This document shows, one piece after another, positions 3,391-40,920 of a stretch of 40,920 nucleotides of DNA. The stretch's first letter is position 1. Each line of letters opens with the position of its first letter. The translations under genes and the position numbers were made by a program. This stretch comes from Rhizobacter sp. Root1221 (lineage in GTDB: Bacteria; Pseudomonadota; Gammaproteobacteria; Burkholderiales; Burkholderiaceae_C), in contig NZ_LMDI01000039.1 of the NCBI RefSeq assembly GCF_001425785.1, positions 1-40,920 on the forward strand. Direction: 5' to 3'. The notes under the pieces were generated by a model. It did no database searches and was not told the origin of the DNA. It saw only the letters and a program-made list of their open reading frames with translations.

Positions 3391-6300
3391 ATGACCTCCG
3401 ACGTCCAGCCCGGCCTGCTGGTCCTGCACGGTAACCGCGCCGAACTGCTGCGCGACGCCCTGTTCGAGTGGATCCAGCGCCAGCCGCTGGCGCCGCTCGA
3501 GGAAGAGGTGTTCCTCGTGCAGAGCAACGGGGTGGCGGAATGGCTCAAGATGGCGCTCGCCCAGCGCCTGGGGGTGTGTGCGGCCACGCGGGTGGAACTG
3601 CCGGCGCGCTTCATGTGGCGCACGTTCCGCCAGGCCCTGGGCCGCGACGCGGTGCCGCCCGTCTCCCCATTCGACAAGACGGCACTCACGTGGCGCCTGA
3701 TGGCCCAGGTGCCGGCGCTGCTCGGGCGCGAGGGGTTCGAGCCGCTCGCCCGTTTCCTCCACGGTGACGACGTGGTGCGCCGGCTGCAGCTGTGCCAGCG
3801 GCTCGCCGACTTGTTCGACCAGTACCAGGTCTACCGCAGCGACTGGCTCGACGCCTGGGCGAACGGCCGCGACGTGCTGCCCAACGGGCAGGCACTGGCG
3901 CTGCCCGTGCCGGCCGACCAGGCGTGGCAGCCCGCGCTGTGGCGCGAGCTGCTGGGCACGCTGACCGCCGGTGAACTGGCGGGCATCCGGCCCCAGTTGC
4001 ACCGCCGGTTCGTCGCGGCCATGGCGGGTGACACCCCCACCGCGGCACCGCTTGCGCGCCGGGTGGTGCTGTTCGGCATGTCGCACGTGCCCACGCAGAC
4101 CATGGAGGTACTCGCGGCGCTGTCGCAGCGTGCCCAGGTGCTGCTGGCGGTGCCCAACCCGTGCCGCTTCCACTGGGCCGACATCCTCCAGAACCGCGCC
4201 GCGTTGCGCGTGCCGCAGCGCCGGCACCCGCTGAAGCTCGGGCGCGACCTGGCCGAAGTGCCGCTGGAAGACATGCACCTGCACGGCCACCCGCTGCTGG
4301 CCGCGTGGGGGCGTCAGGGAGGGGATTTCATCCGCCAGCTCGACGCGTTCGACGACGAAGCGGCACGCCGCCGGTTCGCCATCCCCCGCATCGACCTGTT
4401 CGACGAAACCGATGGCGACACGCTGCTGTCCCAGGTGCAGGCCCGCGTGCGCGACCTGGTGCCGCTCGCCGAACACCCGCCGTTGGCGGCGTTGCCGGCC
4501 GACCGCTCCATCGTCTTCCACGTGGCCCACGGCGGCCAGCGCGAGGTGGAGGTGTTGCACGACCAGCTGCTGGCACTGCTCGCCGCGCCGGGCGACACGC
4601 CGCTGCACCCGCGCGACATCGTCGTGATGGTGCCCGACGTGGAGACCCTCGCACCGGCCATCCGCGCGGTGTTCGGCCAGTACAGCCGGGGGGACGCGCG
4701 TTTCATCCCGTTCGACATCGCCGACGTGAACGACCGCGGCACCAACCCGCTGGTGGTGGCGGTGGACTGGCTGATGCGCCTGCCTCAGGAACGCTGCCGC
4801 CTGAACGACGTGCGCGACCTGCTGGACGTGCCGGCCATCGCGAACCGTTTCCGGCTGACCGACACCGACCTGCCGCAGCTCACCGCGTGGATGTCGGGCG
4901 CGGGTGTGCGGTGGGGGCTTCACGAGGCGCAGCGCGCCGACCTGGGCCTCGAAGCCTGCGGCGAGCAGAACACCTGGCTCTTCGGCCTGCGGCGCATGTT
5001 GCTCGGGTACGCGAGCGGCCTCGTGGCCGCGGGCACGCCGTTCGACGGCATCGAACCCTACCCGGAAGTGGGCGGCCTGGAAGCGGCGCTGGCGGGCTCG
5101 CTGGCCGCGCTGGTGGACGCGCTGACGGGCTGGTGGCAATCGGCCGTGATGCCGGTGACCCCCACCGAATGGGCCGAACGCCTGCGTGCGCTGATGACCG
5201 GGCTGATCGATGCGGACGACGAACGCGACCGGGTCACCGTGGCCGCGCTCGACGACGCGCTGCGCCGCTGGCTGGAAGCGTGCGACACCGCGGGCTTCCA
5301 CGAACGCGTGCCGCTGGCCGCGGTGCGCGAGGCGTGGCTGTCGGGGCTCGACGAGCCGGGCCTCGGCCGCCGTTTCCTGGGCGGCGGGGTCACGTTCTGC
5401 ACGCTGATGCCCATGCGGTCCATCCCTTTCGAGGTGGTGTGCCTGCTGGGCATGAACGACGGCGACTACCCCCGCGCCAGCCCGCGCAGCGACTTCGACC
5501 TCATGGGCCTGCCGGGCCAGACGCGGCCCGGCGACCGGTCGCGCCGCGACGACGACCGCCAGCTGATGCTCGAGGCCGTGCTGTCCGCACGCCGCGTGCT
5601 CTACATCAGCTGGACGGGCCGCAACGTGCGCGACAACAGCGAGCTGCCGCCGTCGGTGCTGGTGTCCCAGTTCCGCGACTACCTGGCCGCGGGCTGGACC
5701 GGCGACGTGCTGGGCGCCCGCACCACGGAACACCCGCTGCAGCCGTTCAGCCGCCGCTACTTCGAGGGGGGCGACCTCTTCACCCACGCCCGCGAATGGC
5801 GGGCCGCCCACGACGCCCAGGCCGGTGGCACCGCGGCGTTCGTGCCGGTGGCGTTCGAACGCGGCGCGGCGCTCACGCTCGACACCCTCGTGGCGTTCCT
5901 GCGCCACCCGGTGCGCGAGTTTTTCCGGCGCAGGCTGGGGGTGGTGTTTTCCGACCGCGATGCCGCGGCGGATGACGAAGAGGCCTTTGCCATCGGGGGC
6001 CTCGAGGAATACCAGCTGGTGCGTGAACTGATCGCCGACGCGGGTGACGCCGATCCCGGCGAGGCCCTGACGCGCCGGGTGGATGCGTTGCGGCGCGCCG
6101 GCCGCCTGCCCATCGGCGCATTGGGCGTGCGCCGCCAGGCCCAGCTGGTGGACGACGTGGCCCCCATGCTGGTGCGCTGGCGCGACGTGATGGCCGACCA
6201 CCCGCTGCCCGCGCCGAAGGTGCCGCTGCGCCATGAACACCAGGGGGTGGTGCTGGAAGACTGGCTCGATGGCCTGCGCACCAACGGCACGCACACGGTC

Positions 6301-32762: not shown

Positions 32763-32899
32763 GTGATGGATTCGCAGGGTGAAGGGACCCGGATAGTGGA
32801 AGGCCCAGCCCCCATTCGCCAATCCCTAGAAGGCCCGCCGGGGCTTGACCCGGGCGAAACCCGTGAGCGCAGGCCGTGCGCCGGGCGAGTTTCGTACTG

Positions 32900-32965
32900 T
32901 GAAGATTTTCTTCATACCGCATGCAGCGTTTGGGCATTTTTCTTTTCAGTTCGGCTGCCTACATT
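32900..32965 (+). promoter_or_regulatory. LysR-type operator and promoter of xdhC (module copy A)
   Basis: This site has the dyad TGAAG-ATTTT-CTTCA (32900-32914), conserved CATGCAGCGTT (32920-32930), TTTTTC as -35 (32937-32942) and TACATT as -10 (32960-32965), 17 bp apart. Transcription would start near 32972, placing the dyad centre near -65 as for LysR-type activators, and leaving a leader of about 88 bases before xdhC. The same layout without gaps occurs at iorA and at the cytochrome c gene. Confidence 0.75.
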
Positions 32966-33059
32966 CAGCGCCATCGGGAAGACCTGAAGGCATCTTCTGA
33001 ACATCTTCGCCAATCTGCCCACCCCTGCGAGAACCGACCCTTTCGACCTGACCTGAGCC

Positions 33060-34106
33060 ATGGAAGATCTCGACACCCTGGTCTTGCGCGCTGCGCTGAG
33101 CTGGCACTTGCATGGGCTGCCCGTGGTGCTCGTCACCGTCGCGCGGACCTGGGGTTCCTCGCCGCGGCCGCCGGGTTCGCTGATGGCGATCAACGGGCGG
33201 GGCGAGACGGTCGGCTCCGTCTCCGGCGGCTGCATCGAGGACGACCTCATCCAGCGCATCAAGGAAGGCGGCGTGAAGGAGGTCTGCGCGACGCTCTTGC
33301 CCACGACGCTGCGCTACGGCATCTCCGCCGACCAGGCCCACCGCTTCGGCCTGCCCTGCGGTGGAACGGTGGAACTGGTGCTGGAACCTGTGTCGGCAGA
33401 CAGCCAGCTGGGAGCCTTGCTCGACGCCTGCTTGCAGCGGCGCAGTACCGAGCGAACGCTGGACTTGCGCACCGGCAGGGCGGTGTTGCGCGAAGGCCAG
33501 CGCGACGGCGTCCCGCAACTCACCGAAACGCATCTGACGACCTACCTCGGGCCGCGAGTTCGACTCATCGTGATCGGAGCCGGCGACCTCTCGCGCTACC
33601 TGTGCCAGATGGCCTTGAGCCTGGGGTTCGAGGTGATCGTCTGCGATCCGCGTGAGGAGCACCGCACCGGTTGGAGCCTGGACGGCGTGGTGGTGAGCCG
33701 CGAGATGCCCGACGACCTGATCCTGCGGCTGAAGCCGGACGCTCGTACCGCGGTGGTGGCCTTGACGCATGACCCGAAACTCGATGACCTGGCGCTGATC
33801 GATGCCTTGCAGTCCGATGCCTTCTACGTCGGTGCCATTGGTTCACGCCGCAATTCTGCGCAGCGGCGAGAGCGGCTGCGCGATCACTTCGATCTCTCCG
33901 AACCGGCGCTGCAGGCCCTGCACGGGCCGGCGGGCCTGTTCATCGGGAGCAAGACGCCCGCTGAGATCGCGCTGTCGATCATGGCCGAAGTGGTGGCCAT
34001 GAAGAACGGTGTCGAGCTGGATGCGCCGACGAGGATTGCCGATGGCAAGACGCGGCATCAAGCGCCACACCTCGAAGTCGGGACGATCGCCGGCTGCGCG
34101 ATCTGA
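33060..34106 (+). CDS. XdhC-family molybdoenzyme maturation protein
   Basis: The protein is 348 aa of the XdhC/CoxI family, which binds molybdenum cofactor, promotes its sulfuration and delivers it to xanthine-dehydrogenase-type enzymes. The N-terminal XdhC domain shows ARTWGSSPRPPGSLMAING (29-47) and GSVSGGCIEDDLIQ (52-65). The C-terminal Rossmann domain starts LIVIGAGDLSRYL (Gly173) and ends with AFYVGAIGSRRNSAQRRERL and IGSKTPAEIALSIMAEVVA. All family signatures are present. It stands apart from iorBA, with a lysR gene between, but shares their promoter module, so it is very likely the dedicated chaperone of that enzyme. Confidence 0.93.
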   Translation: MEDLDTLVLRAALSWHLHGLPVVLVTVARTWGSSPRPPGSLMAINGRGETVGSVSGGCIEDDLIQRIKEGGVKEVCATLLPTTLRYGISADQAHRFGLPCGGTVELVLEPVSADSQLGALLDACLQRRSTERTLDLRTGRAVLREGQRDGVPQLTETHLTTYLGPRVRLIVIGAGDLSRYLCQMALSLGFEVIVCDPREEHRTGWSLDGVVVSREMPDDLILRLKPDARTAVVALTHDPKLDDLALIDALQSDAFYVGAIGSRRNSAQRRERLRDHFDLSEPALQALHGPAGLFIGSKTPAEIALSIMAEVVAMKNGVELDAPTRIADGKTRHQAPHLEVGTIAGCAI

Positions 34107-34132
34107 CGCCCAGCGAACGCATCGCGGGTGAA

Positions 34133-34170
34133 GAACCGTGCCGCTCGACGCGCGGTTCGCTTTTCTCTTC
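34133..34170 (+). terminator. Rho-independent terminator after xdhC
   Basis: GAACCG (34133-34138) pairs with CGGTTC (34153-34158), with further GC pairing inside, and is followed by GCTTTTCTCTTCC, a T-rich tract. It lies 27 bases after the xdhC stop and points the right way. Confidence 0.6.
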
Positions 34171-34233
34171 CATCCGCAACCCAACAGAAACTTGTCATGA
34201 AGAGCCTCCTTGGGCGCCTCGCGCGGGCAGGCC

Positions 34234-35199
34234 TCAGCGGGTGAATGAACCGTGGGACGCCGCCACGAACGGCGGCCCCTTCGAATCCCCGATGAGCGCC
34301 GGCAGTTCCTCGCGCAGGAAATCGACCACGACGCGCACGCGCCGTGGCAGATGCTCGCGCGACGGGAACAGCAGCCAGACACCGTTGTCAAAGCTGGTCG
34401 ACGTGGCTTCGTGCTGCGGAAACAGGTCGACAAGGCGACCTGCTGCGATGTCGGGATCGACCAGCCAGTCTGCCAGCAACACCGGCCCGAGTCCGCCCTG
34501 CGCCGCCTCGAGCAGCGACAGGGCCGATGACGCTGCCAGCCAACCGCCGATCGGGACCACCTCGATTGCCGCGTCAGCGATGCCGCCTTCCTTGAACGAC
34601 CAGGCGCTTTGGACGCCAGGCAGCGCGAAGCGCAAGCAGTCGCGATGGGTCAACTCGGCTGGCGCCTTGGGTCGGCCATGCCGTGCGATGTATTCGGGGC
34701 TCGCGCACACGCGAGAGCGAAGCGGACCGAGCCGGACACCGATCAGGGACCCATCAACGGTGTGACTCTGCCGCAGGGCGATGTCCACTTGCTGGCCAAT
34801 CAGGTCGACGACCGTGTCCGTGAAGTGGAGGTCCAGGTGAAGACCGGGATGCCGCGCGTGAAGTTTGCCCAAGAGAGGCAAGACGAGCTTTTGCCCGAGC
34901 GCCATCGAGGCGGTCAGCCGGACCAGCCCGCGAGTTTCACCCGTACTGGCACGCACATCGTCCGATGCTTCGTCGAGCTCATCCATCAGTTCGCTGACAC
35001 GTCGGAAGTAGGCAGCCCCTGACTCGGTCAATGTCAACTTCCGGGTGGTCCGGTGCATGAGGCGCGCGCCGAGTTCGGCTTCCAGGGCTGCCACGGCGCG
35101 GGTTACCTGCGAGCAGGCGAGATCCAGCCGCCGAGCCGCTGCGGCAAAACTACCCTGGCGCACGACCTCGATGAACGTTCGCAGATGCTGTGTGTCCAT
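34234..35199 (-). CDS. LysR-family transcriptional regulator (first)
   Basis: The protein is 321 aa. The N-terminal winged HTH reads LRTFIEVVRQGSFAAAARRL, LACSQVTRAVAALEAELGAR and MHRTTRKLTLTESG; the effector-binding domain of the LysR (periplasmic-binding) fold spans about 90-300. It belongs to the AaeR/DmlR-like branch (ETRGLVRLTASMALGQKLVL, VDIALRQSHTVDGSLIGVRL). It lies directly downstream of iorB on the same strand, converging with xdhC. The hairpin at 35227-35259 separates it from iorB. It could regulate iorBA, but the shared promoter module is physically linked to the other LysR gene. The effector is unknown. Confidence 0.92.
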   Translation of the reverse strand: MDTQHLRTFIEVVRQGSFAAAARRLDLACSQVTRAVAALEAELGARLMHRTTRKLTLTESGAAYFRRVSELMDELDEASDDVRASTGETRGLVRLTASMALGQKLVLPLLGKLHARHPGLHLDLHFTDTVVDLIGQQVDIALRQSHTVDGSLIGVRLGPLRSRVCASPEYIARHGRPKAPAELTHRDCLRFALPGVQSAWSFKEGGIADAAIEVVPIGGWLAASSALSLLEAAQGGLGPVLLADWLVDPDIAAGRLVDLFPQHEATSTSFDNGVWLLFPSREHLPRRVRVVVDFLREELPALIGDSKGPPFVAASHGSFTR

Positions 35200-35226
35200 C
35201 GGGAGTTTCTACCTGCCTGTGTTGTC

Positions 35227-35259
35227 GAAGCCCGCGCGCACGGTCATGGCGCGGGCTTC
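35227..35259 (-). terminator. Hairpin after iorB
   Basis: GAAGCCCGCGC (35227-35237) pairs with GCGCGGGCTTC (35249-35259), 11 perfect pairs around an 11-base loop, between the iorB stop and the lysR start. There is no T-run on the minus strand, so it is a weak or Rho-assisted terminator, or an mRNA end-protecting hairpin. Confidence 0.5.
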
Positions 35260-35272
35260 CATTCACCCAGGT

Positions 35273-37519
35273 TCAGGAGAGCTTGAACGGCATCTCACGC
35301 AACGGTTTTCCGGTCAACGCCGCCACCGCGTTCGCGAACGCGGGCGCCAGCGGCGGCAGGCCCGGCTCGCCCATGCCCGTGGGCGCATCGGCGCTGGGCA
35401 CGACGTGCACGGCGAACTGCGGCATGTCGGTGATGCGCGGCACGGCGAAGTCGCCAAAGTTGCTCTGTTCCACCACGCCGTCCTTCAACGTGATCGCCGC
35501 ACCCGGCAGGCACATCGACAGCCCCATCACGGCTGCGCCTTGCGCCTGGGCCTCGATGGTGCGCGGGTTCACCGCCAGGTTGCAGTGCACACCCGCCGTC
35601 ACCCGGTGCAGCACGGGACTGTTTTCCTTGATCGAAGCCTCGACCACGTAGGCAACGACGGTCGAAAAAGATTCGTGCACCGCCACGCCCCAGGCGCGGC
35701 CGGCGGGGAGCTGCTTCTTGCCGTAGCCGCTCTTGTCCACGGCCAGCTGTAGCGCTGCGCGGTGGCGCGGGTGCTTGTCGCCCCACAGCTTCATGCGGTA
35801 GGCCACCGGGTCCTGCTTCGTGGCGCGGGCAATCTCGTCGATCAATGTCTCCATCACGAACGCGGTATGGGTGGAACCCACGCTGCGCCACCACAGCACC
35901 GGCACGTTGAGCGTGGGATGGTGCACGGTCAGGCGCATCGGCAGCGGGTAGGGCTCCCGCATGCCTTCGACTGCGGACGCGTCGATGCCATTCTTCACCT
36001 GGAACTTCTCGAACACGGAGCCAGCGAGGATCGACTGGCCGACGATGACGTGGTCCCAGGCCAGCACCTTGCCCGTGTCGTCGAACCCGATGCGCGCGCG
36101 ATGCAGGTGCATCGGGCGGTAGTAGCCGCCTTTCATGTCGTCCTCGCGGCTCCACAGCGTTCGTACCGGCACCTTCAGGCCGGCAGCCCCCGCCGCCTTG
36201 GCGATCTCGCAGGCCTCGACCACGAAGTCACTGGTGGCTGAGAAACGCCGGCCAAAACCCCCGCCGCCCATCTGCACGTTCACCTTCACCTGCTCGGGCT
36301 TGAGGCCCAGCACGCGCGCGACCGCGGCACCGTCCATGCCGGGCGACTGCGAGCCCGTCCATATTTCCGCGTGCCCGTCCGTGATCGCGACGGTGCAGTT
36401 GAGCGGTTCCATGGCCGCGTGGGCCAGGTAGGGGAAGACGAACTCGGCTTCCAGTTGCCGTGGCGCGTTGGCCAGTGGGGCCATGTCGGCTTCGAAATGG
36501 TGCGGCCCGGGGCGGCCGGCCAACTCGCGGTACTGTGCGAGCTGCTTGTCGCTGTCGACTTTCTCCAAATTTGCCGTGTCCCATTGCAGCTTCAGCGCGT
36601 CGCGCCCCTGCTTGGCCGGCCAGTAGCCGTCGGCAATCACCGCGATGCCTTCGGCCCCGCGGTCCAGCGGCACGCGCAGCACGGCCTTCACGCCCTTGAT
36701 GGCGCGTGCCGCAGCGTCGTCCACGGAGGTCAGCCTTGCACCGAACACTGGCGGACGGGCCACCACGGCAGTCAGCTGCCCGGGCAGGCGGACGTCGATG
36801 CCGAAGTTCTGCCGTCCGCTGCTCTTGGCCCGGGCGTCCAGGCGGCCGGTGGGCCGCCCGATGATGCGGAAGTCCTTCGGATCCTTCAGCGTGACCTTCT
36901 CGGGCACGGGCAAGGCCATGGCGGCCTCGGCCAGCTCGCCGTAACCCAGCTTGCGGCCGCCCGCGCCCAGCACCGTACCGGCCCGGGTGCGCAAGGTGGA
37001 TGCGTCCACATTCCAGCGCGCCGCCGCCGCGGCCAGCAGCATGGCCCGCGCGCGCGCGCCCAGCTCGCGGTACTGCGTGTAGCTGTTCTTGACCGAGTTG
37101 GAACCGCCGGTCAGGTGCATGCCGAACGCCGGGTCGACATAGGCGGCGTCGCTCGAGCCATGCTGGCTGCGCACCAGCTTCCAGTCCGCATCGAGTTCCT
37201 CGGCCAGGATCATCGGCAATGCGGTCTGCACACCCTGGCCCATCTCCAGCCTGTTGATCGTCACGGTGACCTCGCCGTTGGGTGCGATCTGCACGAAGGC
37301 CGAGGGCTGTTGGGTCGGCTTGAGGCCGCCGGCCGACTCGCCCGCGCCGTTGGCCTGCGCCATTGCCAGGTGGGGAAAGGCGCCGAGCGCGAACCCTCCT
37401 GCGCCGGCCAGTTTCAGGAAACTGCGGCGCGGCAGGGTGGTGGCTTGGCCGGATTGCTCCCGGTCCAGCATGTGCTGCAAGGCGAGCGGCAGTTCCCGGT
37501 ATTCGATGTTGCGCGACAT
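35273..37519 (-). CDS. Molybdopterin-binding large subunit, isoquinoline 1-oxidoreductase-like (IorB)
   Basis: This is the catalytic subunit of a xanthine-dehydrogenase-family enzyme that hydroxylates N-heterocycles or oxidises aldehydes; the substrate is unknown. The protein is 748 aa. A Tat motif RRSFLKLAGAGGFALGAFPH begins at residue 31, preceded by an unusually long hydrophilic n-region, so export to the periplasm is likely. Cofactor-binding stretches include INRLEMGQGVQTALPMILAE, VNVQMGGGGFGRRFSATSDF and the C-terminal PTGMGEPGLPPLAPAFANAV, with the Glu expected to be the catalytic base. AAGGAA precedes the ATG at 37519. It follows iorA by 9 bases. There is no FAD subunit, so electrons probably pass to a cytochrome. 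Confidence 0.93.
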   Translation of the reverse strand: MSRNIEYRELPLALQHMLDREQSGQATTLPRRSFLKLAGAGGFALGAFPHLAMAQANGAGESAGGLKPTQQPSAFVQIAPNGEVTVTINRLEMGQGVQTALPMILAEELDADWKLVRSQHGSSDAAYVDPAFGMHLTGGSNSVKNSYTQYRELGARARAMLLAAAAARWNVDASTLRTRAGTVLGAGGRKLGYGELAEAAMALPVPEKVTLKDPKDFRIIGRPTGRLDARAKSSGRQNFGIDVRLPGQLTAVVARPPVFGARLTSVDDAAARAIKGVKAVLRVPLDRGAEGIAVIADGYWPAKQGRDALKLQWDTANLEKVDSDKQLAQYRELAGRPGPHHFEADMAPLANAPRQLEAEFVFPYLAHAAMEPLNCTVAITDGHAEIWTGSQSPGMDGAAVARVLGLKPEQVKVNVQMGGGGFGRRFSATSDFVVEACEIAKAAGAAGLKVPVRTLWSREDDMKGGYYRPMHLHRARIGFDDTGKVLAWDHVIVGQSILAGSVFEKFQVKNGIDASAVEGMREPYPLPMRLTVHHPTLNVPVLWWRSVGSTHTAFVMETLIDEIARATKQDPVAYRMKLWGDKHPRHRAALQLAVDKSGYGKKQLPAGRAWGVAVHESFSTVVAYVVEASIKENSPVLHRVTAGVHCNLAVNPRTIEAQAQGAAVMGLSMCLPGAAITLKDGVVEQSNFGDFAVPRITDMPQFAVHVVPSADAPTGMGEPGLPPLAPAFANAVAALTGKPLREMPFKLS

Positions 37520-37528
37520 GGTGGTTCC

Positions 37529-38002
37529 TTAGGCGAGGGTTCTGGCGGCATCGGCCACCGCGGCGCGGATGCGGGCGTAGGTGCCGCACCGGCAGATGTT
37601 GCCGGCCATGGCCGCATCGATCTCGGCCTCGGTCGGCAGCTTGCCGCGCGGGACGGACTTCAGGAAGGCAGTGGCCGACATGATCTGGCCGCTCTGGCAG
37701 TAGCCGCACTGCGCGACGTCATGCTTGACCCAGGCTTCGTGCACCGCCTTGCCGACCTTGTCGGTGCCGCCGGTGACGGCTTCGATGGTGGTGATCTTCT
37801 GGCCGGCCGCCGCGGAGATGGGCGTCACGCAGGAGCGGATCGCCTGGCCGTTCATGTGCACCGTGCAGGCGCCGCACAGGGCCGCGCCGCACCCGAACTT
37901 GGTGCCCGTCATGCCCAGCGTGTCGCGCAGCGCCCAGAGGATCGGCGTGGAGGGGTCGGTGTCGACAGTGTGATCGCGGCCGTTGATGTTGAGCTTGCTC
38001 AT
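37529..38002 (-). CDS. [2Fe-2S] small subunit, isoquinoline 1-oxidoreductase-like (IorA)
   Basis: This is the electron-transfer subunit partnering the large subunit, 157 aa. The plant-ferredoxin-type cluster uses Cys38, Cys43, Cys46 and Cys58 (CGAALCGACTVHMNGQAIRS then C). The second cluster uses Cys99, Cys102, Cys137 and Cys139 (QCGYCQSGQIM and NICRCGTYARI). All eight ligands are present. It lacks its own signal peptide, as expected if it is exported by hitch-hiking on the Tat signal of the large subunit. It is the first gene of the iorAB operon, starting at the ATG at 38002. A promoter module shared with xdhC and the cytochrome c gene lies upstream at 38096-38161. Confidence 0.94.
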   Translation of the reverse strand: MSKLNINGRDHTVDTDPSTPILWALRDTLGMTGTKFGCGAALCGACTVHMNGQAIRSCVTPISAAAGQKITTIEAVTGGTDKVGKAVHEAWVKHDVAQCGYCQSGQIMSATAFLKSVPRGKLPTEAEIDAAMAGNICRCGTYARIRAAVADAARTLA

Positions 38003-38095
38003 GGTGGGTCGGTTCTCCGCGAACAGTGGACGGGCGAGGGGTGCCCGATGGATCGGCGTGGGGGTGTCAGGCGTTGTCTTGCGCCAGCGACCGCG

Positions 38096-38161
38096 ACTGT
38101 AGGTACGCTGACGAAGAAGAAAAAGGCATCAATGCTTATGACCGTATGAAGGTCTTCTTCA
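38096..38161 (-). promoter_or_regulatory. LysR-type operator and promoter of iorAB (module copy B)
   Basis: Read on the minus strand from 38161, this holds the dyad TGAAG-AAGAC-CTTCA (38161-38147), conserved AGCATT (38136-38131), TTTTTC as -35 (38124-38119) and TACAGT as -10 (38101-38096), with the same spacings as copies A and C and no gaps. The predicted transcript start near 38089 leaves a leader of about 87 bases, almost the same as for xdhC. Confidence 0.75.
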
Positions 38162-38198
38162 AGATGCGCGCCTCGACTCAACCCGCCGCGCCGTTCGA

Positions 38199-39095
38199 TC
38201 AAGACGCATGCCGGCCGACGTACTCGATCAACGCCTTCAGCTTCGAAGGCTGGTCGTGCCTGCTGGGGTAGTACAAGTAGAACCCGGAGAACGTTGGCGA
38301 GAACTCGGTCAGTACACGCTTCAAGCGCTTGGCCCGGATGTGGGGCTCCGCCAGTTGCTCGAACGTGTATGCCAATCCGACGCCTTCGAGTGCGACGTCC
38401 AGGCTGAACGTCGTGTCGGTGATGATGATGTTGCCGCCGACCTCATAGTCCACCAGCCGGCCGTCTACGTCGAATTCCCACTTGTAGATCGCGCCTGTGG
38501 TGGCGAATCGCAGCCGCACGCAGTTGTGATGCACGAGGTCGTCCGGATGCCGGGGAGCAGGCACGCGCTTCAGGTATTCCGGAGACGCAACCACCGCGAC
38601 CGTCAGGGGGCCTCCGATGGGAACGGCGACCATGTCGCGATGAACGCTCTCGCCAAAGCGGATGCCTGCGTCGAAACCTTTCTCGACGATGTCGACAAAA
38701 CCCTCGTCATTGGTCAGCTCGAGCAGGACATGCGGGTTCTCTCGGAGAAAACCTTCCAGGAAGGGGCGCAGGGCCAGCGCACTGGAGGCCCTTGCCGCAT
38801 TCAAGCGCAAAGTGCCGGAGGGCTTCCCCTGAAGGACATTCAGTTCGTCCCCCGCATCGATGACTTGCCCGAGGGCCGGACCGATGCGTGAGAGGTAGGC
38901 CTGGCCGGCTTCAGTCAGGCTGACGCTTCGCGTGGTGCGGTTCAAGAGCCGCACACCCAGGCGTGCCTCCAGATGCCGGATGGCTTGGCTCAATGCGGAG
39001 GGTGAAACCGCCAGGTCCGCTGCGGCCGCGGTGAATCCACCATGCTCCGCGACCTTCCAGAACGCGATCAATCCGTCCAGTTGATTCAGTTTCAT
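38199..39095 (-). CDS. LysR-family transcriptional regulator (second), candidate master of the module
   Basis: The protein is about 298 aa. The winged HTH reads LDGLIAFWKVAEHGGFTAAA, ADLAVSPSALSQAIRHLEAR and LNRTTRSVSLTEAG; the effector-binding domain follows (SGTLRLNAARASSALALRPF, VDIVEKGFDAGIRFGESVHR). The frame is open further upstream, but the LysR homology begins with MKLNQLDGL at the ATG at 39095. The dyad of promoter module copy C starts 5 bases from this start codon and faces the divergent cytochrome c gene. That is the classic arrangement for a LysR protein that represses itself and activates its divergent target. It is therefore the best candidate to control all three module copies, though not proven. 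Confidence 0.92.
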   Translation of the reverse strand: MKLNQLDGLIAFWKVAEHGGFTAAAADLAVSPSALSQAIRHLEARLGVRLLNRTTRSVSLTEAGQAYLSRIGPALGQVIDAGDELNVLQGKPSGTLRLNAARASSALALRPFLEGFLRENPHVLLELTNDEGFVDIVEKGFDAGIRFGESVHRDMVAVPIGGPLTVAVVASPEYLKRVPAPRHPDDLVHHNCVRLRFATTGAIYKWEFDVDGRLVDYEVGGNIIITDTTFSLDVALEGVGLAYTFEQLAEPHIRAKRLKRVLTEFSPTFSGFYLYYPSRHDQPSKLKALIEYVGRHAS

Positions 39096-39099
39096 ACCT

Positions 39100-39165
39100 T
39101 GAAGCTTACCTTCACAGGTCATGCAGCATTGCCCTATTTTTCTTTCGTTCTCCCCCTCATAGAGT
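39100..39165 (+). promoter_or_regulatory. LysR-type operator and promoter of the cytochrome c/SDR/OYE genes (module copy C)
   Basis: This site has the dyad TGAAG-CTTAC-CTTCA (39100-39114), conserved CATGCAGCATT (39120-39130), TTTTTC as -35 (39137-39142) and TAGAGT as -10 (39160-39165). Over the first 45 positions it matches copy A at 32. It lies in the divergent gap between lysR and the cytochrome gene. The predicted start near 39172 leaves a short leader of about 24 bases. Confidence 0.75.
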
Positions 39166-39195
39166 TCGCACAACGCCCGACCGACGAGGAAGAAA

Positions 39196-39573
39196 ATGAA
39201 CAGAGCAACGAAGACGCAAGCCAGCATCCAACGAGCCGCAACCAGTCGGCGCTCGCTGCGAGCCGTGCTGGCAGCCGCGCTGGTCAGCTGTGGCGGCATT
39301 GCATGGCCGATGAGCGCCGCGGCCAGCCAGGCGCTCGCACAGAAGTACGCGTGCGTCGCATGCCATCAGCCCGCGACAAAGGTCGTAGGCCCCTCGTGGA
39401 AAGACATCCGCGCAAGGTACGGCGAAGGACAAGGCGCGGCCGCACAACTCGCCGCCGGCATCAGGGCGGGCAGTTCGGGGAAATGGGGCGCCATGCCGAT
39501 GCCGCCGCAAATGCAGGTTCCGGAGGCGGACGCACGGGTGCTCGGGCAATGGTTGGTCGACGGTGCCAAGTAG
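39196..39573 (+). CDS. Periplasmic class I cytochrome c
   Basis: The protein is 125 aa. It has an N-terminal signal segment with a long basic n-region, then SLRAVLAAALVSCGGIAWPM, cleaved near SAAA-S. The mature domain of about 80 residues is a c551-like (c8) cytochrome: heme-binding CVACH with Cys53, Cys56 and His57, and the distal Met in GAMPMPPQ (Met100 or Met102). GAGGAAG (39186-39192) precedes the ATG. It leads an operon with the SDR gene 25 bases downstream. Since it shares a promoter module with the molybdenum enzyme, which lacks an FAD subunit, it is a plausible electron acceptor for that enzyme. That is an inference. Confidence 0.92.
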   Translation: MNRATKTQASIQRAATSRRSLRAVLAAALVSCGGIAWPMSAAASQALAQKYACVACHQPATKVVGPSWKDIRARYGEGQGAAAQLAAGIRAGSSGKWGAMPMPPQMQVPEADARVLGQWLVDGAK

Positions 39574-39598: not shown

Positions 39599-40438
39599 AT
39601 GAGCAAAGTTTGGTTCATCACCGGAGCGGGCAGCGGCATTGGCGCCGGCGCCGTGAAGGCCGCGCTGGGCGCCGGTCACCGCGTCGTAGCCACCGGCAGG
39701 AACGTGGAGAAACTGAGAAGCGCGCTTCGCGGCGTGGCGGCCGACAACCTGGAGATCCTCCCCCTGGATGTCTCCGACGAGGCGCAGGCATCAACGGCTG
39801 TGGCGCAGGCGATGACGAGGTTTGGCAGGATCGACGTCGTGCTGAACAATGCCGGCTACAGCCTGGTCGGCAACTTCGAGGAGCTGACGACACACGAGAT
39901 CGAGCGCCAGTTCGCAACCAACTTCTGGGGCGTCAGCCACGTCATGCGGGCAGCGTTGCCCGTCTTGCGCAAGCAGCGCTCCGGCCACATCATCAACATG
40001 AGCTCCGTGGCGGGTGTCGTCGGGATGAAGCACTGCAGTGCCTATGGTGCGAGCAAGTTCGCCGTCGAGGGCCTTTCGCTGGCAGTCGCCGACGAGGTCG
40101 AGCAGTTTGGCATCAAGGTCACCGCCGTCGAGCCGGGCTTCTTCCGCACGGACCTGCTGGACGCCGCCAACGTCAAGTGGCCCAGCCATCGAATCGCGGA
40201 CTATGCGGCAAACGAGGTGAGCGCCCAGGAGATGTGGTCTCCCTACGCAGGCCACCAGCCGGGGGACCCCGACAAGCTCGGCGAAGTGCTCGTGAAGCTC
40301 ACCGGCATGGCGTCACCGCCACGCCTGTTCGTGGCGGGAGGCGACGCGATCGAGATGATTGCCCCGGCCGTGCAAGCCCGACTGAAGGCGGTGCACGCCT
40401 TCGAGGATCTCTCGAAGTCGACCGTCGGCAACTTCTGA
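39599..40438 (+). CDS. Short-chain dehydrogenase/reductase
   Basis: This is a classical SDR of 279 aa. The cofactor motif TGAGSGIG is at 8-15, and the Arg in TGRNVEKL (position 34) favours NADP(H). NNAG is at 83-86, the catalytic Ser in NMSSVAG (about 135-136), Tyr149 and Lys153 in SAYGASKF, and PGFFRTD follows. The C-terminal roughly 70 residues carry a longer tail ([20 protein letters not shown]) typical of the oxidoreductase subgroup found next to old yellow enzymes and LysR regulators. AAGGA precedes the ATG at 39599. The substrate is unknown, probably a carbonyl compound. Confidence 0.92.
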
Positions 40439-40493: not shown

Positions 40494-40841
40494 ATGCCTG
40501 GACTGTTCGACAGCTACACGTTGAAGGGTGTCACCCTTCGCAACCGCATCGCAGCTTCGCCGATGTGCCAGTACATGGCCCGGGAAGGCCTGGTGACCGA
40601 CTGGCATCTTCCGCACTACGCCAGCCTGGCGCGCGGCGGTGCTGGCCTGGTGATGGTCGAGGCTACCGCCGTGTCGCCCGAAGGCCGCATCACACCCGGA
40701 GACCTCGGGCTCTGGAGCGACGCACACGTGCGGGGATTGGCCGCCGTGGCGCGAGCCATCACGGGTGCCGCTGCGGTGCCGGGCATCCAGCTCGGCCATG
40801 CCGGGCGCAAGGCTGGCTGCGCGTGTCGTGGTTCAATCTGA
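40494..40841 (+). pseudogene. Old yellow enzyme (NADH:flavin oxidoreductase), 3'-truncated
   Basis: The first 107 or so residues match YqjM-type old yellow enzymes, FMN-dependent ene-reductases: [26 protein letters not shown] with the flavin-tuning Cys25, [33 protein letters not shown] and [11 protein letters not shown]. Family members continue with a Ser/Ala-containing substrate loop and total about 360 residues. Here the homology stops after GRKA near 40813 and the frame ends with GCACRGSI and a stop at 40839-40841. None of the remaining 250 residues is found in any frame up to the window end. The gene thus appears broken by an insertion or deletion. It lies 55 bases after the SDR gene, probably in the same operon. 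Confidence 0.8.
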
Positions 40842-40920
40842 TCGGACAGGTCGATGAGGGCTTGTATCCCCCGAGACCGAGAAGAGCATGACAGACAAGA
40901 CGCAACGCCGACCACGCCGG
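40813..40920 (+). mobile_element. Possible left end of an inserted element, cut by the window edge
   Basis: From about 40813 the sequence no longer continues the old yellow enzyme gene. A new frame begins at the ATG at 40888, MTDKTQRRPRR, and runs off the window. The short basic N-terminus after an abrupt break would fit a transposase, but no terminal repeat or family can be recognised from 108 bases. A deletion joining an unrelated gene is the alternative. Confidence 0.3.

Follow-up and report, generated by a model that had tools for sequence, protein, structure and literature searches.

Three copies of a 66-bp LysR-type module point to one regulator for a split oxidoreductase gene set in Rhizobacter sp. 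Root1221

The closest described systems are promoters controlled by LysR-type regulators. In the accessible part of a comparison of such promoters, those of GcvA, MetR, OxyR, IlvY, CynR and LysR among them (Oliver et al. 2016, PMC5002191), a 15-bp inverted repeat lies at −64 to −66 for OxyR, IlvY, CynR and LysR; the first repeat of divergent promoters overlies the regulator's own promoter; and further sites are placed at −43/−44 (IR2, activating) and at −34/−35 (IR3, repressing). We analysed a 40,920-nt stretch of Rhizobacter sp. Root1221 (hereafter the window), which is the entire contig C39 of a 6.87-Mb genome and carries three copies of a 66-bp module: copy A upstream of xdhC, copy B upstream of iorAB, and copy C between the regulator gene lysR1 and the cytochrome gene cytc. 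The similarity of the copies is confirmed as real and non-random, and the best explanation, which we regard as highly likely, is that each copy would be a complete LysR-type operator–promoter under LysR1. Compared with the published promoters, as far as the accessible part of that comparison describes them (PMC5002191), the locus is alike in its 15-bp repeat near −65 of a predicted start, its divergent regulator gene, a repeat lying on the regulator's predicted promoter and a possible further site near −35; it differs in lacking a strict T-N11-A box, in reusing the whole 66-bp promoter at three units, and in a regulator transcript predicted to be leaderless, with the −10 element within the repeat.

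The initial annotation had described three gap-free copies, and their coordinates, strands and letters agree with the sequence (Table 1). All three copies contain the dyad TGAAG-N5-CTTCA, AGC(A/G)TT at module positions 26–31, TTTTTC at 38–43 and the −10-like box TA(C/G)A(G/T)T at 61–66, and TTTTTC is separated from the −10-like box by 17 bp in each, all as annotated. The annotated identity counts were likewise reproduced (24/45 of positions 1–45 the same in all three; 32/45 between A and C), and over the full alignment the three copies are identical at 29/66 positions. Copy C starts, as had been stated, 5 bp from lysR1, whose first base is 39095. The dyad centre is module position 8, and the start predicted from the −10-like box falls at about position 73, which places the centre near −65 of that predicted start. 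The assignment as a LysR site stood in part: a single LysR regulator is well supported in silico, but the dyad is not a strict T-N11-A box, as its positions 2 and 14 give G-N11-C and its outer pair gives T-N13-A. No Rfam family reached its gathering score within 32800–39300, and a scan for consensus sigma-70 promoters, which covered region A, returned none. That the copies belong to a dispersed mobile or repeat element without a regulatory role, as three similar sequences within 6.3 kb might suggest, is extremely improbable: every copy precedes a start codon, their flanking DNA is not in common, and A and B are as near to the modules of other species as to C. The last two observations also speak against a recent duplication of the module inside the window.

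Since the dyad on its own is uninformative, occurring at 26 genomic places against 12 for a reversed control, evidential weight was placed on a composite pattern, consisting of the dyad, AGCRTT and TTTTTC at fixed spacing with up to 3 mismatches, and on its reversed control. Throughout the 6.87-Mb genome the composite pattern has no match other than A, B and C, the reversed control matches nowhere, and the pattern was not found in 10 other searched genomes of the genus. A weight matrix built solely from the modules of other genomes (maximum score 104.1) ranks A first, followed by C and B (Table 1); the next-best position on either strand of the window scores 0.9, and the highest score among 3000 shuffled sequences (1000 for each of three intergenic regions, made by a simple random-path method) is 5.0.

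Our scan of named genomes points to LysR1 as the partner of the module. It returned 55 loci, of which 37 (L019–L055; 68–87% identity to LysR1) were kept, from Variovorax, Polaromonas, Ramlibacter, Cupriavidus, Paraburkholderia, Caballeronia, others and two Aeromonas; the matrix does not include the remaining 18, some of them partial and none above 43% identity. The module lies directly upstream of lysR1, gap-free, in 37/37 kept loci, copy C having the same place in the window; its distance to the lysR1 start is 2–4 nt in 36 loci and 18 nt in L047, and the 66-bp pattern matches all 37 genomes, against 0 for the reversed control. No module was found upstream in the left-out loci L056–L072, and L071 and L073 are without a usable upstream region. 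Among 36 distinct modules, conservation is nearly complete (~1.6–2 bits) in the dyad arms and TTTTTCTT and falls below 0.5 bit at positions 52–58. A scan of the family found pattern matches in 30 of 399 genomes, at 36 places in total: the surroundings were read for nine places (L137–L145), for four (G223, G030, G137 and G089) and for three (G028, G239 and G366); the window's three places, two in G251 and one in G084 had already been covered through the window, L040 and L054; and the remaining places, with 3 mismatches each, are assumed to be chance matches or paralogs. The proposal of the initial annotation that one regulator serves the three promoters is thus supported both by the constant association with LysR1 orthologs and by the recurrence of the linked genes together, and LysR1 is the best candidate regulator of A, B and C.

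A second LysR protein, LysR2, is encoded between the xdhC and iorB units and could on that account be what actually controls copies A and B. We consider this very unlikely, given that the module goes with LysR1 orthologs and that none of the 37 LysR1 loci holds a match to lysR2 of at least 40% identity; in other clusters lysR2 finds matches of 28–32% only, each at a LysR gene also matched by lysR1. Moreover, the recognition segment of LysR2 is ACSQVTRAVAALE, whereas that of LysR1 is VSPSALSQAIRHLE, closely common to LysR1 orthologs and module-bearing paralogs; this difference is modest evidence, because the segment is widespread in LysR proteins.

Copy C appears to contain the promoter of lysR1 itself. 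A TANNNT box lies 5–7 nt before the start codon in 43/43 lysR1 genes, that of the window included (34 at 7 nt, 8 at 5 nt and 1 at 6 nt), and the other three-base gap classes hold such a box in 0–6 of the 43 genes; the last 16 nt before the lysR1 starts contain no simple Shine–Dalgarno match, except GGAG in L047. The box is located inside the dyad in all lysR1 genes but L047, an overlap of regulator site and promoter seen at the level of sequence only; in L047 the dyad is 14 bp farther off, yet TATGCT is still found 7 nt before the start. The TA of the box corresponds to dyad positions 8–9 and is present in 42/42 dyads located 2–4 nt from a lysR1 start; it is missing in L047, in 7/7 copies away from lysR1 (A, B, L022b, L024b, L040b, L137 and L144) and likewise in L142 and L145, whose paralog modules are strong. 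Among the nine family places first read, the five with TA adjoin lysR1 and the four without do not. A Fisher test on 41 distinct TA modules and 9 without (L047 left out) compares related sequences, and its P is not a true probability. We identified no good −35 element for lysR1. The economical reading is that the lysR1 mRNA would be leaderless, with its −10 box within the operator, and lysR1 is predicted to be self-repressed: because copy C covers the lysR1 −10 box on the other strand, bound LysR1 would shut off lysR1. The restriction of TA to lysR1-adjacent copies amounts to a natural experiment in which, within a LysR site, the letters of the operator can be told apart from those of the promoter.

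The genes behind the module in relatives recall those of the window. iorB, at 75% identity or more, lies within the divergent cluster in 16/37 LysR1 loci. The gene order behind the module is cytc-iorA-iorB in L019–L021 and L053, cytc-sdr-iorA-iorB in L023, sdr-iorA-iorB in L043–L046 and L050, and cytc-iorA-iorB-xdhC in L022 and L040, and iorA-iorB follows directly in L041 and L051; in L141, cytc-sdr-iorA-iorB-oye adjoins a LysR1 of 89% identity, which is the window's set minus xdhC. In other loci the first gene encodes an OYE-type ene-reductase (L026, L032–L039 and L143; short in L032 and L037), a flavodoxin-fold reductase (L022, L027, L028, L052, L139 and L140), an aldo/keto reductase (L029, L030, L031, L042, L048, L055 and L138) or a short-chain dehydrogenase (SDR; L047, L049 and L054). 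Pfam was run on seven examples; the aldo/keto and flavodoxin-fold names are Pfam-tested for L029, L022, L040 and L139 and given by likeness for the rest, and gene names for L020, L021, L023, L034–L036, L053 and L141 come from tblastn, the open reading frames being unreliable there. Extra modules lie before cytc-iorAB-xdhC in L022, before iorAB in L024 and before a Flavodoxin_2 gene in L040; in L144 a module precedes cytc-iorAB, with no lysR1 within the 10 kb read. The initial annotation had asked whether the module recurs at orthologous promoters of relatives: it does so before many cytc, iorA, sdr and oye runs, and for xdhC only indirectly, as xdhC follows iorB in L022, L040 and L146 and has a module immediately upstream only in the window. 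Here the oxidoreductase set is split into three units, each with one module, and the split set very probably stays co-controlled through one LysR-family regulator acting on the three copies.

Several side observations concern these loci. In L137 a DUF1330 gene (5271–5651) is the first after a strong extra module, and in L022 a small protein that looks similar is the second frame behind the lysR1-adjacent module. Both Aeromonas loci (L027 and L028) carry a LysR1 ortholog (77%), and there the intact module precedes the gene of a flavodoxin-fold reductase, an arrangement suggestive of transfer across a wide taxonomic distance. The LysR1 loci of metagenome-assembled genomes labelled Rhizobium and Asaia (L041 and L051) resemble Burkholderiales ones and reflect either transfer or wrongly binned contigs.

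We propose that a LysR1 dimer would bind the dyad TGAAG-N5-CTTCA, centred near −65; that a second dimer would touch the weaker region around TTTTTCTT at the −35 position; and that the second dimer, once inducer-bound, would aid RNA polymerase at the TA(C/G)A(G/T)T −10 box. On copy C, LysR1 would silence its own leaderless gene while driving the divergent genes; copies A and B would put xdhC and iorAB under LysR1; in relatives these stand in the same gene runs as cytc, sdr or oye. The gene set would plausibly make a periplasmic molybdenum hydroxylase passing electrons to cytochrome c, and NAD(P)H reductases acting on carbonyls, enones or quinones. Because the targets are rich in reductases, our guess is that the inducer is a reactive carbonyl, enone or quinone. 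CrgA of Neisseria meningitidis is induced by an unsaturated lactone. The nearest solved sequence to LysR1 is 3hhg (E 1.3e-31), which is CrgA, a repressor or activator at crgA/mdaB according to the accessible text of PMC6422896. The flavodoxin-fold reductase targets (Pfam Flavodoxin_2) of several relatives suggest a likeness to MdaB; as differences, the same text gives a T-N11-A site for CrgA (PMC6422896), and the targets in the window are a molybdenum hydroxylase, a cytochrome, an SDR and an OYE.

A number of results weigh against this proposal. Of the 43 iorB loci of at least 75% identity found in the family sample, which include another one from this genome, just 5 are linked to the lysR1-type module: those of the window, G251, G292, G353 and G308 (module ~8 kb upstream). 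iorAB would thus be mostly regulated otherwise. The underlying search scored at most two iorB candidates per genome and found iorB at E ≤ 1e-290 in 94/399 family genomes. Among 45 genomes picked for the module or LysR1, the module is in the cluster of 18 of 24 iorB of at least 75% identity, is again ~8 kb upstream in G308, and is absent for 5 of the 24. Around ten module-free iorAB loci (80–85% identity) no LysR1 ortholog was seen in 12–15 kb; LysR genes of 37 and 39% identity occur in two of them, and xdhC lies beside iorB in 6/10. This enzyme set therefore probably answers to several regulators, LysR1 being one. Three full modules were found only in this genome among those examined, and the three-promoter mini-regulon of the initial annotation, present here with its three modules, is special to this genome, since most LysR1 genomes are single-copy. 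It must also be counted that we infer binding, activation, autorepression and start sites from the DNA sequence.

The second repeat is a further point on this side. No strong second dyad copy was seen at −35, where the repeat is weak: the best of 57 other offsets is 30, with 5.3 of 10 core matches, and its centre at ~−36 is nearer the repressing IR3 than the activating IR2 of the published comparison. Given this position, and given that CrgA is described in the accessible text as repressing or activating at crgA/mdaB (PMC6422896), LysR1 might repress rather than activate the three promoters. We find this unlikely: activation fits the dyad centre near −65 of the predicted start and the poor −35 element TTTTTC, and a still weaker repeat-like offset of 23 (4.5 of 10) has its centre at ~−43, which matches the place of the activating IR2.

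The operator may also be shared. LysR paralogs 40–47% identical to LysR1 have TGAAG-N5-CTTCA modules of like geometry before their own starts in other genomes (L142, L145 and L156–L160); because these modules are so similar, a paralog could also bind, and the three promoters would then answer to more than one regulator. In the own genome, the nearest paralog (44%) has upstream one arm and a partial second, TGAAGCATAGCTCGG; however, a genome-wide search allowing up to 3 mismatches gives no further full module, and a second paralog (42%) has no module in the ~200 bases read. We consider use of one operator by several paralogs improbable, and control by LysR1 the preferred reading. A CANNNT box lies 6–7 nt before the start in 6/6 paralog genes checked, which suggests that LysR promoters of this leaderless, self-overlapping kind form a broader class. 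Three genomes of one other genus (G028, G239 and G366) have 3-mismatch matches between iorA and a divergent LysR gene, in a cluster with iorA ~74%, iorAB ~69% and LysR 43% identical (the last to LysR1). Their variant module has TTAAG-N5-CTTAA and TTTTTCTT at unchanged spacing, with matrix scores of 18–21 (L175 4951–5016; same place in L176 and L177), and the recognition segment of the LysR read there, VTPAALSQTIKKLE in L175, differs too; this is no more than a hint that the regulator and its site may have evolved jointly.

The domains of the window's proteins support the general assignments listed in Table 1. LysR1 is a LysR-type protein by its HTH_1 (80.9 bits; cut-off 26.6) and LysR_substrate (103.4 bits; cut-off 28) scores. 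Among the matches listed, no NCBIfam cut-off is reached by the regulators, XdhC, IorA, IorB, SDR or OYE, so exact functional names are unwarranted: LysR1 scores 161.2 of 470 bits against YafC and 133.1 of 288 bits against GcvA, and the xdhC product scores 88.8 of 161.6 bits against TIGR02964 (XdhC of xanthine dehydrogenase), with its Pfam XdhC domains above their cut-offs. The name IorAB (isoquinoline 1-oxidoreductase) is that of the initial annotation and is putative; the tests made here covered the domains. We take the window's iorAB to be of the type named IorAB or PaoABC, the periplasmic molybdenum hydroxylases: it resembles them in its Fer2/Fer2_2 and MoCoBD subunits, in a twin-arginine-like leader of IorB (RRSFLKLAG, judged by eye from the translation), in an XdhC-type factor and in a nearby cytochrome c, and differs in that its proteins stay under the listed NCBIfam cut-offs. 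The annotated ene-reductase gene does encode an Oxidored_FMN domain, but it appears truncated, being cut after ~109 codons by a repeat from 40823. This repeat (40823–40920) ends the contig, is identical over 98 bases at G000:C14 and 99% identical at C8, and opens a transposase-like frame (weak HTH_Tnp_1, then HTH_21) of the IS3 family by look. lysR2 may be co-transcribed from module B, in which case a second regulator would be a target of LysR1. The own genome also contains a second iorA-iorB-xdhC-cytc cluster (G000:C29; L166 5403–9626), with iorB 81% identical and without a module, adjoining a LysR paralog that shares 37% identity with LysR1.

Table 1. Positions of modules, module parts and genes in the window
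Feature	Position	Strand	Basis or remark
Module A, upstream of xdhC	32900..32965	+	sequence; matrix score 81.3 bits
A, dyad	32900..32914	+	
A, AGCGTT	32925..32930	+	
A, TTTTTC	32937..32942	+	
A, −10-like TACATT	32960..32965	+	
Module B, upstream of iorAB	38096..38161	−	sequence; matrix score 62.1 bits
B, dyad	38147..38161	−	
B, TTTTTC	38119..38124	−	
B, −10-like TACAGT	38096..38101	−	
Module C, between lysR1 and cytc	39100..39165	+	sequence; matrix score 71.1 bits; same place in 37/37 ortholog genomes
C, dyad	39100..39114	+	
C, TTTTTC	39137..39142	+	
C, −10-like TAGAGT	39160..39165	+	
Predicted lysR1 −10 box TAAGCT, inside dyad of C	39103..39108	−	7 nt before start codon
lysR1, LysR-type regulator, proposed for all three modules	38199..39095	−	Pfam HTH_1, LysR_substrate; 37 orthologs
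xdhC, XdhC-family molybdenum cofactor maturation factor	33060..34106	+	Pfam XdhC_C, XdhC_CoxI; iorB neighbour in L022, L040, L146
lysR2, second LysR gene	34234..35199	−	Pfam HTH_1, LysR_substrate; 73 bp past iorB, same strand
iorB, molybdopterin-binding subunit	35273..37519	−	Pfam MoCoBD_1, MoCoBD_2
iorA, 2Fe-2S subunit	37529..38002	−	Pfam Fer2_2, Fer2
cytc, small c-type cytochrome, CVACH	39196..39573	+	Pfam Cytochrom_C
sdr, short-chain dehydrogenase	39599..40438	+	Pfam adh_short; start set as in relatives
oye, first third of ene-reductase-like gene	40494..40822	+	Pfam Oxidored_FMN positions 2–107 of 342

We found no description of this regulon in the open-access literature searched; it is a new regulon of the known LysR divergent-promoter type. 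Taken jointly, the results may tentatively be read further, in a way that we hold to be possible rather than probable: LysR1 would found an unrecognised family of carbonyl- or quinone-responsive regulators in Burkholderiales and two Aeromonas, with a portable 66-bp cassette and a leaderless, autorepressed lysR1. As parts of this same tentative reading, each fragment of a broken gene run would keep or regain a full copy of the cassette; with the −10 box buried in the operator, operator and autorepressed promoter would evolve as one element; and copies freed from lysR1 would lose exactly the TA.

In conclusion, the three modules offer a regulon, open to direct testing, for a periplasmic molybdenum hydroxylase that is widespread but uncharacterised; they are also an instance in which co-regulation was very probably preserved after a gene run broke up. 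Should its ligand become known, the 66-bp cassette could serve as a compact inducible promoter.

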